A DNA stretch of 5,676 nt from an uncultured Porphyromonadaceae bacterium (GTDB taxonomy: Bacteria > Bacteroidota > Bacteroidia > Bacteroidales > CAMTPD01). The first letter of the stretch is position 1. Each line of letters begins with the position of its first letter. The position numbers and the translations under genes are program-made. The stretch is from the NCBI GenBank assembly GCA_947074265.1, contig CAMTPD010000135.1, positions 1-5,676 on the forward strand, written 5' to 3'. Below are positions 1 through 5,676 of this stretch, piece by piece. The notes under the pieces are model-generated. The model was not told where the DNA came from and ran no database searches. It worked only from the letters and a program-made list of their open reading frames with translations.

Positions 1-410
1 CATCTCAGCTGCTCAAACGTAAAGCCGTACTGATCTGCTTGCGGCACTTTTGCCCGCCAGATTCCGTTCTCCCACGGTTTCCAACCCGTAACCTCTACGC
101 CGCCGCTCAAAATGGTTTGGTCCATGCCTGCACCTTTGATTACCGTCGGACGTGTATCTTCCGTGTCAAAAACAAGCGGACTACCCATCGTGTAGGTCCC
201 CGCCTCAACGTACACATACGCTGTATCTTTTCCGGTCGATGCTTTGATTAATTCCTTTGCTTTGTGAAGCGACTTTACAGGACTAGCTTTCGTTCCTTTG
301 TTGGTATCGCAACCGTTGGTAGAAACATAGAATGCTTCCTGCGCAACAATGGGTTGGCTCATTAATAATGCAGCCAATCCCATCCAATTATATAGTGCTC
401 TTTTTTTCAT
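1..410 (-). CDS. Secreted right-handed beta-helix protein, N-terminal part (3' end outside window)
   Basis: This gene reads from an ATG at 410-408 through 136 uninterrupted codons to the left edge, where it is cut. It begins MKKRALYNWM, and a hydrophobic stretch at about residues 10-22 ends in IVA|QE, a plausible signal peptidase I site after Ala23, so export is likely. The mature protein opens with FYVSTNGCDTNKGT followed by SPVKSL. This is the usual N-terminal cap of bacterial right-handed parallel beta-helix proteins (pectate-lyase-like fold). Around residues 102-121, SGGVEVTGW and NGIWRAKVP match the segment that precedes the first full helical coils in many Bacteroidota members. The catalytic region is missing, so activity cannot be assigned; polysaccharide hydrolase or lyase families such as GH141 or GH120 are possible. 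It starts 28 bases after the neighbouring beta-helix gene, whose N-terminus it resembles, suggesting co-transcription. No strong ribosome binding site precedes the ATG, only an A-rich stretch, which is normal in Bacteroidota. Confidence 0.85.
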   Translation of the reverse strand, partial: MKKRALYNWMGLAALLMSQPIVAQEAFYVSTNGCDTNKGTKASPVKSLHKAKELIKASTGKDTAYVYVEAGTYTMGSPLVFDTEDTRPTVIKGAGMDQTILSGGVEVTGWKPWENGIWRAKVPQADQYGFTFEQLR

Positions 411-438
411 GTTTATTTCTTGGTAAGCATACGACAAC

Positions 439-2577
439 TTAAGGCAATGTACAGCCAATCTTATCAAACGGAATTTGTTGGAAGCCCGGAATTCTTTCGA
501 ACAACGTGGCATTCGGTTTGAAACCCTTCAACGGATCTTCGCAGTCAACGAATCCCGGATCCTCGTTGGTAGCCCAGTTGTCGTAGAATTCTCCCCACTG
601 CGATTGCCCGTTGAGCACATTCCCGATTTTATAGAACAGGTTTCCGTTGATTACATTACGCTTCGGATACGACGGGTCTTCGTCCCAATAATTTGCCAAC
701 TCCGGATAGGCCGTGCTGTAAGGTGGCTGATTATACTTCACCACATTGAGACGTTGTTCCATAATACCGCCTTTGGCTACCATTCCTTTACCCCAACCTT
801 GCATACGGTTGTCGATATGAATTGCCACCGGCGATTCGATAAAGATATTATTGGTATACGTGTTGTCGTGTCCGCCGCCGATAAGAACCGGAAGCGAGCC
901 TGCACGGTGGTATACATTTCCATACACTTTGGTATCGCAAGCACCGTCGTCATGATACGTTGCCGTAACACGGTGGCGCGGACTCAGTTCTTTGAAATAG
1001 CAATAACGGATTACACTGCCGCGTTCCGATGCGTCGCGTCCGTAGTAGATTGCCCCTTGGTCGTCGACCTCACCACACACATTCGTTATCTTACACAACT
1101 CGATCACGTGATCGTTGCCATGGAAAAGAATCGCCATACTCGGCGCATTGTAAATATCACACTTGCTGATACGGTTTCCGACACCGTCCATCCACACACC
1201 CGGACGATACGACTTCTCGATGCGGTTGTAGTCGTGAATCTTGCAGTTCTCCACAAAGTTGCCGGCTGCGGTTAGTGATGCACGATCACCGCCACCCAAA
1301 CTCACACCTCCGGCACCTACATTGTAGATGTAGCAATCTTGCACACCGTTGTTGGTTCCGCCGTTACGATTGAATAAAACATCTTGATATACCTTACCGA
1401 GCAAGTCGCCCACGATACGCGAAGCTCGCTCGCCACCGGCCTCAGCCGCATGTGGTCGCAAAGCCTGCTTATCGGGCGTAACAGAACCTTGTCCGATGCA
1501 AACTCCCAAACCACCGAGGTTTCGAATCGTACATCCTTTTATCAATACATTGTTTGTTTGCTCCATATAGATTCCCATGTCGCGACCATATTCAAACGTA
1601 ATCCCTTCGATCAGTACATTCGAACGGTTCTCGATCGCAACAAGCGGTTTGTCCAAAACAGAAACGTGCAAAGACGCTAACTTTTCCTCGGGCATGTAAA
1701 CATACATTTTACCGTGCGTTGCATCTACGACATACTCACCCGGCAAATCGATCTCCTCTACCAAGTTTACGGCAAACCATTGACGCCATGGTGCACCGGT
1801 CATAAAGCCGTAAACCGTTTGTTGGGCCGGATGAATGGTTTTAGCCTGCGCGTCGATACTTCCCACGCGAATCATATCATCGGCATACCCGTGTGCGAAG
1901 TACCCACTTATCCACACGTTTTCATCAATCACCCATTCGGATGGTCGCGACTCTGCATATTTGAAAACCGGAAGTTTGCCTTCTTTTACATGTTCGCCTG
2001 TTCCTGCTTCAAGAACTTCTCCTATTAATACGGTAGAATCGTTGGGCCAGCGCGAAAGACGCATCGGTGATTCGTTGACAAACAACTCACTCCATCCCGC
2101 ACTGCTGGGACGTCCAAAGCCCGAAGCCCTTAGTCCGCCCACGGGAATACCCAGTTTCGTTAAGTCTATTTCTTTTACTTTTCCACGCATTTCGGGACGA
2201 ATACGCTCCGCGACAGCTTGATCTGCCACCCGCTTCAATACATCTTTTTTCAGATGTCTGCCTCCCGAGATAGAGACTTTCTCATCGCCATACGGTTTTA
2301 TGGTAAGGTTGTTGGTGTGACCGTTGTTTCCGATCACTACCGTTTCGCTGATCTCGTAACAGCCGTTGCGCATAAAAATCGTTACAGCTTCAGTTGATTC
2401 GGTTGCCGCCAAGGCCAATGCCGCCGGCAGCGTCTTTACCGGACTACCCATAGTACCGCTATTCGTATCCTTTCCCTTTGGTGATACATAAATATCCTTT
2501 GCACTCACCATCTGCACGCAAAAAGAGGCCAGTAACAATACCCTGCCTGTGTTTTTCTTCCAGTTCATTTCTTTCAT
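439..2577 (-). CDS. Secreted right-handed parallel beta-helix protein, probable glycoside hydrolase (GH141-like)
   Basis: This is a complete 712-residue protein. A signal peptide (basic MNWKKNTGR, then VLLLASFCVQMV, then VSA|KD near residue 26) indicates export. The cap motif IYVSPKGKDTNSGT with SPVKTL follows at about 29-50. ISGG at 103-106 and the ELFVNESPMRLSRWPND segment at 164-180 are recognisable in Bacteroidota and Planctomycetota beta-helix enzymes. Residues 310-590 hold the helical coils, with repeated N-x-I/V ladders such as NNVLIKGCTI, GVQDCYIYNV and VENCKIHDY. A charged insertion at about 364-408 interrupts them. Conserved-looking acidic clusters are EVDDQGAIYYGRD (503-515), HDDG (542-545) and IHIDNR (586-591). 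They are candidates for the active site, but I cannot map catalytic residues from sequence alone. The C-terminus IPGFQQIPFDKIG is a typical ending of this group. GH141 (fucosidase/xylanase) is my best family guess at low confidence; GH110 and GH120 look less likely. The start at 2577 gives MKEMNWKK; Met4 at 2568 is an equally good start. It is probably the first gene of a two-gene minus-strand unit. Confidence 0.88.
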   Translation of the reverse strand: MKEMNWKKNTGRVLLLASFCVQMVSAKDIYVSPKGKDTNSGTMGSPVKTLPAALALAATESTEAVTIFMRNGCYEISETVVIGNNGHTNNLTIKPYGDEKVSISGGRHLKKDVLKRVADQAVAERIRPEMRGKVKEIDLTKLGIPVGGLRASGFGRPSSAGWSELFVNESPMRLSRWPNDSTVLIGEVLEAGTGEHVKEGKLPVFKYAESRPSEWVIDENVWISGYFAHGYADDMIRVGSIDAQAKTIHPAQQTVYGFMTGAPWRQWFAVNLVEEIDLPGEYVVDATHGKMYVYMPEEKLASLHVSVLDKPLVAIENRSNVLIEGITFEYGRDMGIYMEQTNNVLIKGCTIRNLGGLGVCIGQGSVTPDKQALRPHAAEAGGERASRIVGDLLGKVYQDVLFNRNGGTNNGVQDCYIYNVGAGGVSLGGGDRASLTAAGNFVENCKIHDYNRIEKSYRPGVWMDGVGNRISKCDIYNAPSMAILFHGNDHVIELCKITNVCGEVDDQGAIYYGRDASERGSVIRYCYFKELSPRHRVTATYHDDGACDTKVYGNVYHRAGSLPVLIGGGHDNTYTNNIFIESPVAIHIDNRMQGWGKGMVAKGGIMEQRLNVVKYNQPPYSTAYPELANYWDEDPSYPKRNVINGNLFYKIGNVLNGQSQWGEFYDNWATNEDPGFVDCEDPLKGFKPNATLFERIPGFQQIPFDKIGCTLP

Positions 2578-2658
2578 GAGTTAGTTAAGTTTATTCGATA
2601 TGATAGTGTATTTTATCATGATTTATCGTTGCTTCGTCAAATCTGTATTTTCCATGAA

Positions 2659-2740
2659 GATCTTTTTTTTCGGGATTGCATCATTCAATCTCCGTTATAA
2701 TTAAGCCGTCAAAATAGGCTCCTTTGAATCAAAAAAGATC
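2659..2740. repeat. Inverted repeat with 10-base arms
   Basis: GATCTTTTTT at 2659-2668 is exactly complementary in inverted orientation to AAAAAAGATC at 2731-2740, with 62 bases between the arms. The arms are of low complexity (a homopolymer run plus the self-complementary GATC), so chance is a fair explanation. It could form a long-range stem in the leader of the minus-strand transcript if transcription starts upstream of 2740. Confidence 0.3.
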
Positions 2741-2829
2741 ATTATAGTGCATTTTTCTGCCGAATTGATAAAATTTCGATCGGCATACTTAAATATACAT
2801 TTTTTGTTTTTCATACATTTACAATACAA

Positions 2830-2844
2830 CATGTGTGCTACATG
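2830..2844. promoter_or_regulatory. Perfect 5-5-5 dyad, possible operator
   Basis: The sequence reads CATGT-GTGCT-ACATG, two perfect 5-base half-sites around a 5-base centre. It lies about 140 bases upstream of the GH35 start and about 15 bases upstream of the weak promoter candidate. Its size would suit a dimeric DNA-binding regulator. A 5-base dyad can arise by chance in 400 bases, and no regulator gene is in the window, so the role is conjectural. Confidence 0.25.
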
Positions 2845-2858
2845 AAAATAACAACAGC

Positions 2859-2891
2859 TTCGATTCTCGAGATAGACTAACTGTATTTTTC
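2859..2891 (+). promoter_or_regulatory. Candidate Bacteroidota-type promoter for the GH35 gene
   Basis: TTCG at 2859-2862 and TATTTTTC at 2884-2891 are separated by 21 bases. Each differs by one base from the Bacteroides primary sigma factor consensus (TTTG near -33 and TAnnTTTG near -7), and the spacing is about right. Transcription would start near 2895-2898 and leave a leader of roughly 85-90 bases before the ATG at 2984. It is the best plus-strand candidate I found, but with a mismatch in both elements it remains weak. Confidence 0.3.
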
Positions 2892-2983
2892 ACCCTCTTG
2901 GCAAACGAAGAACACCATGCTTGTTTCGATTGAATAAGACAACCATGAAGACAAATTAATAAAGCTAACAATAAACTCAATCC

Positions 2984-5622
2984 ATGAATAAATTCTCCAC
3001 CTTCCTCAAGAGTAGGCTATGCATTGCAAGTGCCGGTATTCTACTCACGACGGCACAAACCGTTTCGGCGCAGCAACTCCCCGAAAAGAAGTTTAGCCAT
3101 CCCGAACGCATCAAGTACGACAATCAGTGTTTTACCATAGAAGGCGAAGACATCTTTGTATTCAGTGCCGCCTTCCATTACTTTCGATGTCCGCAAGAAT
3201 TGTGGCGCGACCGCTTCGCTAAAATAAAAGAAGCCGGCTTTAATACCGTAGAGACTTACGTTCCGTGGAACTGGCACGAGCGCAACATGCCTAAAAACGT
3301 AAACGACTATTCGCAGTGCGACTTTACCGACCTCAAAGCTTGGCTCAAGATAGCACACGAAGAGTTTGACCTTTATACCATTGTACGTCCCGGGCCATTC
3401 ATTTGTGCCGAATGGGCAGGCGGTGCATACCCGCGTTGGCTAGCCAAGTTTTGTCCCGACCAATACGACACCAGCTTTTGGCTTCGAAGCAATCATCCCG
3501 AACACATCAAGTGGTCTACCCACTGGTTCAACGCCGTTTCTCCCGTATTTGCCGAAGAACAGCTTTCGCGCAAGAAGAAAGGAGAGAAAGGAATTATCAT
3601 GGTGCAGCTCGAAAACGAATACATTTACTTCGGGATGGAATCGGACAAGAAAATCGAGTTCTTGAAAGCATTGTACGATGCCTCGGTAAATAACGGAATC
3701 GATGTTCCCTTGTTTACCTGCGTAACACCCGAAGTGCGCGGCTCAAAAGATCCTGTAATCAGTCAGCTTTTCGACATGGATAATCAATACGTATGGTGGA
3801 ATATGCACGAAGCCAAAACCCGTATCGAAGATCTTCGAAAGATACAACCCAATGCACCCGCCTTCGTTTGCGAGTTGCAAGGAGGATGGTTCTCTACCGT
3901 AGGCGGTGCATTAAGTGAAGACAGTTATCTCGATGGCCGTCATGCCTCAGGCATGGCACTGATGGGAATGGCAGGCGGTAGCACCGGACTCAACTATTAT
4001 ATGTTTTTCGGCGGAACCCACTTTGCCGGTTGGGGTGCACGCCGCATGACTACCACCTACGATTACGGTGCGCCGTTGAAAGAAAACGGAGGAGTAGGTG
4101 AAAAATACGCAGCCGTAAAAAGCATCGGTAACCTGATCAACAAATACGAACAGCAGCTTACCCGCACCACCGACGTTTCGTCGCAACTAAGCGGTGCCAC
4201 GGACGATATGACCGCAGCCTTGCGACAGTCGGCAGATCAAACGCGCTTCTTATTCGTACTCAATAAAAACAAAAAACAACCCGTATATCAAACTCTTACG
4301 GTGCAAACCGCAAATGGGAAAACAATACCTGTAACCTGTTCGCTCAAGCCACTCGAAAGCAAACTACTGGTGCTGCCTTCGGGAGCAAACTCAAGCATGG
4401 ACGGCGAATGGTTTCCGCAAGAAGCCGAAATGCCGAAACGCCCTACGTCTTTGCCTGCCGCTATCCGCGTTTCTAAAGCATGGAAACAAAACGAAGACTA
4501 CAACGGCAACTGGCAAAAGCTGCGCAACGGCGTCTCTCTGCCCGAGTTGGATGTAAACGACTGCCGCTATTCGATGTATAAAAGCGAAGTAAACGTATCG
4601 AATAAAGACTTGCAACAATACGGCACCTTGCTGTTCGACATGTTTACCGACGACCCCATGTATGTAGAGGTAAACGGACAAGTAGCCGCCAAAGCTTCGA
4701 CAGACGAGAACGACAACACGTTCAACGTACAAGGACTACTGAAAGAAGGCAAAAACACCATCGTTGCTCTGTATGAAAACAAAGGACATGCACATGGTTA
4801 TCGCCCGATGGAAGAGTTGAGCGGAATGCGCAAAGGCGGACTTGGCAAGCCGCAGACCTCGATCACACCAATCGAAGATTGGGATGTAAAAGCGGTAACA
4901 ACACCTGTAAAAGATATCGCATCCGTAACAACCGCAACCGATGGTTGGGACAAGATCATGCTCAACGAGGAAACCATTGCCGGATTGGCAACCTTGCAGA
5001 TAGCCGGACTTGAGAAACCGAAATGGCCTGCTGCGTGGGTTATCCACGGAAAAGAAGGGACTGCGGTATACCGTACGCACATCAACTTCACACCCGATAT
5101 GCTTGCCAACGAAAAGACGGTGCTCGAATTTGCTTGCATCGACGACGAAGGCTCATTGTATGTAAACGGAAAAGAAGTAGGAACACACAATGAATGGGAC
5201 AAGCCGTTTATTGTAAACATCGCACCTTATATTAAGCCGGGCAACAACGAGGTTGCAGTGGTAGTAAAGAACGGTAGCGGTGCCGGCGGAATTTTAAAGT
5301 CGGTACGTTTGCTGCGCGAACTGAAGATCGAAAAGCCGCTCAACTGGATGGTATCAACAGACTTGGGAGGTGTTGTTAATAATTGGCATATGCCGACAAA
5401 CCCAACAAGCAACTGGACCGAAGTAGCCTTGAATACACAAGATCCGATTGCCCGCAAAGGGAAAGATGTACAACCCAAAGGCAAACAAGACGGACTGCTT
5501 ACTTGGTACAAGGTTGAGTTTGACATGCCAACACTTCCAAGCAATGTATGGATTCCATGGCGCGCCATCATCAATACGTCGGGCACGGGCTACATGTGGC
5601 TCAATGGTAACAACATCGGACG
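2984..5622 (+). CDS. Secreted GH35 beta-galactosidase, C-terminus truncated by contig end
   Basis: This is a glycoside hydrolase family 35 enzyme, expected to release terminal beta-galactose from oligo- or polysaccharides by a retaining mechanism. A signal peptide ends at VSA|QQ (Ala29). The (beta/alpha)8 catalytic domain spans about residues 40-385 and shows SAAFHYFRCP, NTVETYVPWNWHE, VRPGPFICAEW and GGTHFAGWGA. In QLENEY the acid/base is Glu212, and in CELQGGWF the nucleophile is Glu297, by analogy with the family. Beta-sandwich (galactose-binding-like) regions follow: about 500-620 (with DDPMYVEVNGQ), 680-778 (with DEGSLYVNGKEVG) and 838-880 (with GTGYMWLNGNNIGR). The genomic frame holds 879 codons plus two bases of Arg880; from 5623 the DNA is sequencing adapter. 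The frame continues as DRKSVV to a TAG at 5642-5644, but that tail and stop are artefacts. Family members usually continue after NIGR with an aromatic residue and some tens more residues. The ATG at 2984 is chosen because it starts the signal peptide and in-frame stops lie just upstream. No strong ribosome binding site precedes it. Confidence 0.95.
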
Positions 5623-5676
5623 AGATCGGAAGAGCGTCGTGTAGGGAAAGAGTGTACGACCGGGTGTAGATCTCGG
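5623..5676. other. Illumina P5-side adapter contamination with 8-base index
   Basis: From 5623 the sequence starts AGATCGGAAGAGC and through 5655 (33 bases) matches the reverse complement of the standard Illumina read 1 primer site. Bases 5656-5663 (ACGACCGG) occupy the i5 index position. Bases 5664-5676 (GTGTAGATCTCGG) match the start of the reverse-complemented P5 flow-cell sequence. All three parts come in the order expected for read-through of a short insert in a dual-indexed library. This is from memory of the adapter sequences; the match is long and ordered enough to leave little doubt. The exact junction could shift by a base or so, because the first adapter base also completes an Arg codon. 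The stretch is not part of the organism's genome. Confidence 0.97.

Follow-up and report, generated by a model that had tools for sequence, protein, structure and literature searches.

The last 54 bases of the window, by which we mean the whole 5,676-nucleotide stretch of DNA analysed here, are untrimmed Illumina TruSeq P5-side adapter with probably a two-error copy of the D507 index, CAGGACGT (probability about 0.93). The sequence-only reading had claimed that positions 5623 to 5676 are adapter and not genome, and the claim held: all 46 of 46 fixed positions agreed with the adapter. The TruSeq pattern consisting of AGATCGGAAGAGCGTCGTGTAGGGAAAGAGTGT, eight free bases, and GTGTAGATCTCGG gave one mismatch-free match in the window, and none of 200 shuffles matched this free-index pattern. 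We take the segments to be named and ordered as the TruSeq read 1 site, index, and P5, as follows.

5623-5655, plus strand: Illumina TruSeq read 1 primer site in reverse complement, 33 bases, exact match
5656-5663, plus strand: index position, 8 bases, ACGACCGG, probably ACGTCCTG with two misread bases (5659 and 5662)
5664-5676, plus strand: start of the P5 sequence in reverse complement, 13 bases, exact match

The window is the entire contig C135 of its assembly (G000), so position 5676 is a true contig end, and the adapter tail reaches this last base and points outward. At the left end of C135 no exact copy of the adapter 13-mer was found, the sole listing on this contig being at 5623. The boundary between adapter and genome could lie one base later, as A5623 fits the third base of Arg codon 880 of the gene described below. 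The first 17 bases of the read 1 site segment recur at 44 contig ends of the same genome. The P5 oligo and the D-series indices are printed in the text of PMC6525360 available to us.

The assembly comprises 2,185,330 bases in 422 contigs and is 61% complete. The adapter 13-mer AGATCGGAAGAGC occurred in it 138 times, and the same 13-mer read backwards as a control occurred 0 times. We fetched 132 of the 138 places, the other six being left out of the counts, and all 132 ran outward to a contig end as judged from the contig ranges. Of these tails, 45 belong to the P5 side and 86 to the P7 side; the remaining one, of 13 bases (L004), is unassignable and was entered with the P7 side in the tail count. 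When up to 110 bases of flank from each of the 132 capped ends were compared with one another, no similar pair was found at an E value of 1e-5. One P7-side tail, in the first 76 bases at the left end of contig C25 (L012), spans the whole adapter and is followed by a run of A. Such a run fits reads that continue beyond the library molecule on a four-colour Illumina instrument. Adapter contamination thus affects the whole assembly and is of the same kind as that described in the available text of Moeller et al. 2024 (PMC11536531). The tail of C135 is an ordinary, documented laboratory and assembly artefact and not biology.

Index and length of the adapter tails

Among the 38 P5-side tails long enough to be read, 25 had ACGTCCTG as the index, five had ACGGCCTG, two had ACGTCCGG, and six had single forms, one of which is the ACGACCGG of the window. 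On the P7 side, TCCGGAGA was present in 69 of the 75 tails that were long enough. PMC6525360 gives the TruSeq i5 D507 primer with CAGGACGT and the i7 D702 primer with TCTCCGGA, which is TCCGGAGA in reverse complement; by this source the tail consensus of the assembly is i5 D507 (ACGTCCTG, which is CAGGACGT in i5 orientation) with i7 D702. Both TCCGGAGA and CAGGACGT serve as barcodes of a primer set in the excerpt of PMC6481090 seen.

The tail of the window itself does not read D507, as ACGACCGG and ACGTCCTG differ at two of eight bases. At tail position 37 (T to A in the window), seven of the 37 other P5-side tails were off the consensus, and one of them, the error-rich L045, had the same base as the window. 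At tail position 40 (T to G in the window), the identical change was observed in two of the 37. Furthermore, two contig ends of another D507 library read ACGACCTG, which is the first change of the window alone. The window was the single place of ACGACCGG in its own genome. This version of the index was also absent among the 104 stretches listed by a genome scan that allowed for it, in which the genome's own records may be left out, and it gave 0 matches in viral contigs. Tails with two errors are common (13 of 112). As each of the two changes is met again in other tails, the window's index most likely represents a misread D507, although this account of the two differing bases is one that we infer from the sequences.

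As 13 of the 38 P5-side tails deviate from the consensus index, the consensus is itself drawn from error-laden readings. An index taken from one contig end can be wrong; hence, sample tracing and claims of cross-contamination need the consensus of many ends. The suggestion that the library index is readable from this contig as CCGGTCGT was not supported, with the consensus in 25 of 38 tails and the window's form, two bases off, in one. Nor did we find support for the suggested use of CCGGTCGT to trace the contig to a sample or to show cross-contamination, given its single occurrence and its recurring changes. A sample-sheet look-up of CCGGTCGT would likely mislead. As a candidate for a genuine library index, CCGGTCGT was rejected as unlikely on the same two observations.

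The D507 i5 index was also observed at contig ends of a Bacteroidales MAG, SRR7610114_bin.2 (CAMTOT01, for example L134-L236), to which 57 of the 104 listed stretches were assigned. Among these 57 stretches, the i7 index was CGCTCATT in all 14 readable P7-side tails. The available text of PMC6525360 gives CGCTCATT as D703; the i7 of this MAG is therefore not D702, and it belongs to another library. A sibling library within one study is possible, but D507 is a stock index. P5-side adapter was also seen near the left ends of three viral contigs from IMG/VR (L237, L238, and L239), with three other indices, CATAGCCG, TCTCTTCA, and ACCGGTTA as read.

Tails with more mismatches to the consensus adapter were longer. 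The median length was 47, 50, 53, 55, and 62.5 bases for tails with 0, 1, 2, 3, and at least 4 mismatches (60, 27, 13, 4, and 8 tails, respectively). The Spearman coefficient was 0.78 over 112 of the 132 tails; this set excludes 19 tails of less than 40 bases and a single tail of 173 bases, and it counts L097 and L118, with a one-base indel each, as 21 and 23 mismatches. Part of this trend is expected because longer tails hold more room for errors. The window tail, with 54 bases and two errors, falls among the other two-error tails (50-54 bases).

These lengths may be explained by the behaviour of a graph assembler. Where a DNA fragment was too short for the read length, the read would run on into the adapter, and a k-mer assembler given such untrimmed reads would carry the contig on into adapter sequence. 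The contig would then end at a branch point of the graph, where the adapter is common to a very large number of reads. Reads in which the adapter has more errors would have it in common with fewer others, and their tails would become a few bases longer. The tail of the window, with its two errors, agrees with this. A toy graph model gave lengths of 48, 52, 55, and 63 bases for zero to three errors, with an assumed k of 55 fixed throughout, 60,000 reads, and a 2% error rate, this being the best of six settings as chosen by eye; it overshoots the observed medians at two and three errors. The model is consistent with the proposed account of the tail end points. As for the earlier proposal that the end of C135 was built from untrimmed read-through, its adapter part is supported, and read-through is the probable source.

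The interrupted beta-galactosidase gene

The adapter tail of the window interrupts a gene for a GH35 beta-galactosidase. The features concerned, together with the two other genes of the window, are listed below.

2984-5622, plus strand: GH35 beta-galactosidase gene cut short within codon 880, with residues 1-879 plus two bases of that codon (from Pfam and relatives)
5642-5644, plus strand: false stop codon TAG contributed by the adapter (open reading frame 2984-5644)
439-2577, minus strand: right-handed beta-helix-like protein (by similarity)
3-512, minus strand: right-handed beta-helix-like protein, below the Pfam cut-off and running off the contig start (by similarity)

The open reading frame at 2984-5644 encodes 886 amino acids, the last of which, DRKSVV, are adapter-coded. 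Its GH35 catalytic domain is present (Pfam Glyco_hydro_35, PF01301, E value of 6.7e-66). BetaGal_gal-bd is matched only as far as position 39 of the 62 in its profile, which is reached at residue 880, and the C-terminus is incomplete. The closest protein, P0001, is 97% identical and was aligned over residues 1-880 without gaps, with 851 identical residues. Past residue 880, it has 62 more residues, which start with HWEEGPQREFYLPECWL (HWEEGPQREF). The junction was mapped on the best 63 of the 120 listed relatives, with P0064-P0120 left out and P0049 and P0060 unmappable; all 61 mapped relatives run on past it with coding sequence for 54-64 more residues. The homologue in the genome G022 also continues with coding sequence past the junction position. 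None of the 120 listed relatives had an adapter-like ending by the motifs tried, and a literature search with the adapter-coded peptide strings gave no match. The real gene is thus expected to extend for about 54 codons past the junction.

The truncated enzyme looks complete because the false stop of the adapter hides the truncation. This was observed at other ends as well: at 19 of the 62 capped ends that had 1.5 kb of flank, a frame of 100 codons or more enters the adapter without a stop, and at eight of these 19, the window included, a stop within the tail or at the junction closes it. The 54-base tail should be trimmed from the C135 record, and it marks a gene predicted to continue on another contig.

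The two beta-helix proteins are divergent to the GH35 gene across an AT-rich stretch at about 2501-3000 (33% GC). No RNA family was found in the window at the gathering score. A plasmid search returned one Phocaeicola record only, covering 12% of the gene at 70% identity.

When the genome was searched with the 62 extra residues of P0001, two matches were obtained, both on contig C247. One (E value of 3.7e-4) lies inside a second GH35 gene. The other is short (E value of 0.03) and lies at the right end of C247 (L063), which is capped by a P5-side tail of 51 bases with a clean D507 index. Read inward from the adapter, this end encodes YENDAEMR, a stop, TLNRTNK, and a stop. YENDAEMR also occurs near the end of P0001, which finishes with YENDAEMRTSLSQTNK, and on C247 it stands in frame immediately at the edge of the adapter. 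By a crude estimate, such an eight-residue identity at an adapter edge is expected by chance about 2e-4 times per genome. Furthermore, TAC on C247 is preceded by two bases, CG, that agree with the proline codon at this place in P0001. Counted on P0001, the gap between C135 and C247 would be 45 codons and two bases, or 137 bases. Taken together, these points make C247 the likely site of the missing 3' end, namely of the last eight codons, with about 137 unassembled bases separating it from C135. The stop on C247 falls eight codons before that of P0001, and the codons following it still resemble the end of P0001. If the link between C135 and C247 is right, the earlier stop is a small natural difference in the C-terminus.

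Gene order gave no support for this link in the one relative that was compared (17,001 bases around the G022 homologue), where neither the 440-residue protein of C247 nor the two beta-helix proteins of the window had a match at an E value of 1e-3. On the minus strand of C247 (L254), positions 118-2550 encode the second GH35 beta-galactosidase of 810 residues, and positions 2523-3845 encode the 440-residue protein, which has a weak match to amylo-alpha-1,6-glucosidase. The GH35 gene and its neighbour suggest a sugar-degradation locus on C247.

Alternative explanations

The 54 bases might be real genome or a natural insert resembling the adapter. We found no point in favour of this explanation and regard it as negligible in weight: the agreement at every fixed base stands against the empty shuffle control, 132 contig ends with mutually dissimilar flanks are capped by this adapter, and the relatives, including the 97%-identical P0001, have conserved coding sequence at the junction instead. 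The index ACGACCGG might also be genuine, the read that formed the end having come from another library by index hopping or cross-contamination. Its eight bases are indeed unambiguous and stand off the consensus at two positions. However, it was found in one of the 38 P5-side tails and at one place in the genome, in none of the 104 stretches listed by the genome scan, and 0 times in the viral_contigs set. Both substitutions recur in other tails, and two-error tails make up 13 of the 112. As a whole word in print, CCGGTCGT was met in a lymphoma gene paper, judged by its title. A genuine second index is thus very improbable, and a misread D507 is the reading that we prefer.

Another explanation concerns the cause of the contig end. 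The adapter may have induced a break of the graph in well-covered sequence, with no coverage gap, and C247 may not be the neighbour of C135. In the available text of Moeller et al. (PMC11536531), trimming of capped ends lets some contigs merge, which means that adapters can break contigs; the match on C247 is, moreover, short. Against such a break, a count on P0001 leaves about 137 bases unaccounted for between C135 and C247, and the 132 capped flanks, compared among themselves, have no mutual overlap. Against C247 being unrelated, eight identical residues stand in frame at the edge of its adapter, for which the crude chance estimate is about 2e-4. We consider this explanation rather unlikely, but the most credible of the three set out here. 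We put forward a broader proposal only tentatively, at somewhat short of even odds: the adapter tails of deposited contigs would preserve a legible trace of how the assembly came about. Jointly, the tails would return the dual index despite single misreads and would lengthen by a few bases per error through the shared adapter hub of the assembly graph, and inward-facing capped ends would mark short uncovered gaps within a single gene, by which the broken genes of public MAGs could be paired without the raw reads.

Comparison with known systems

In the Trimmomatic paper (PMC4103590), as far as its available text goes, adapter read-through leaves adapter on the end of a read when the fragment is shorter than the read length. 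The present case would arise in the same way and differs in that the adapter is seen in the assembly and not in the reads. The protein of the window has the GH35 catalytic domain in common with the GH35 beta-galactosidases of Bacteroidota and differs from them in that its last 54 or so residues are gone, with DRKSVV in their place.

Adapter-capped contigs in published microbial genomes have already been documented by Moeller et al. 2024 (PMC11536531). As in the case of C135, the available text describes TruSeq adapter at contig ends, with many such ends per assembly, in forward orientation at right ends and reverse-complemented at left ends, with the P5- or P7-specific part coming next; it reveals no difference in kind from the tail of C135. 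An index consensus, an error-dependent tail length, and false stops are absent from its abstract, Results, and Methods as available to us. What the present analysis adds to the documented artefact is small: the index consensus, the dependence of tail length on errors, the false stop, and a likely partner contig.
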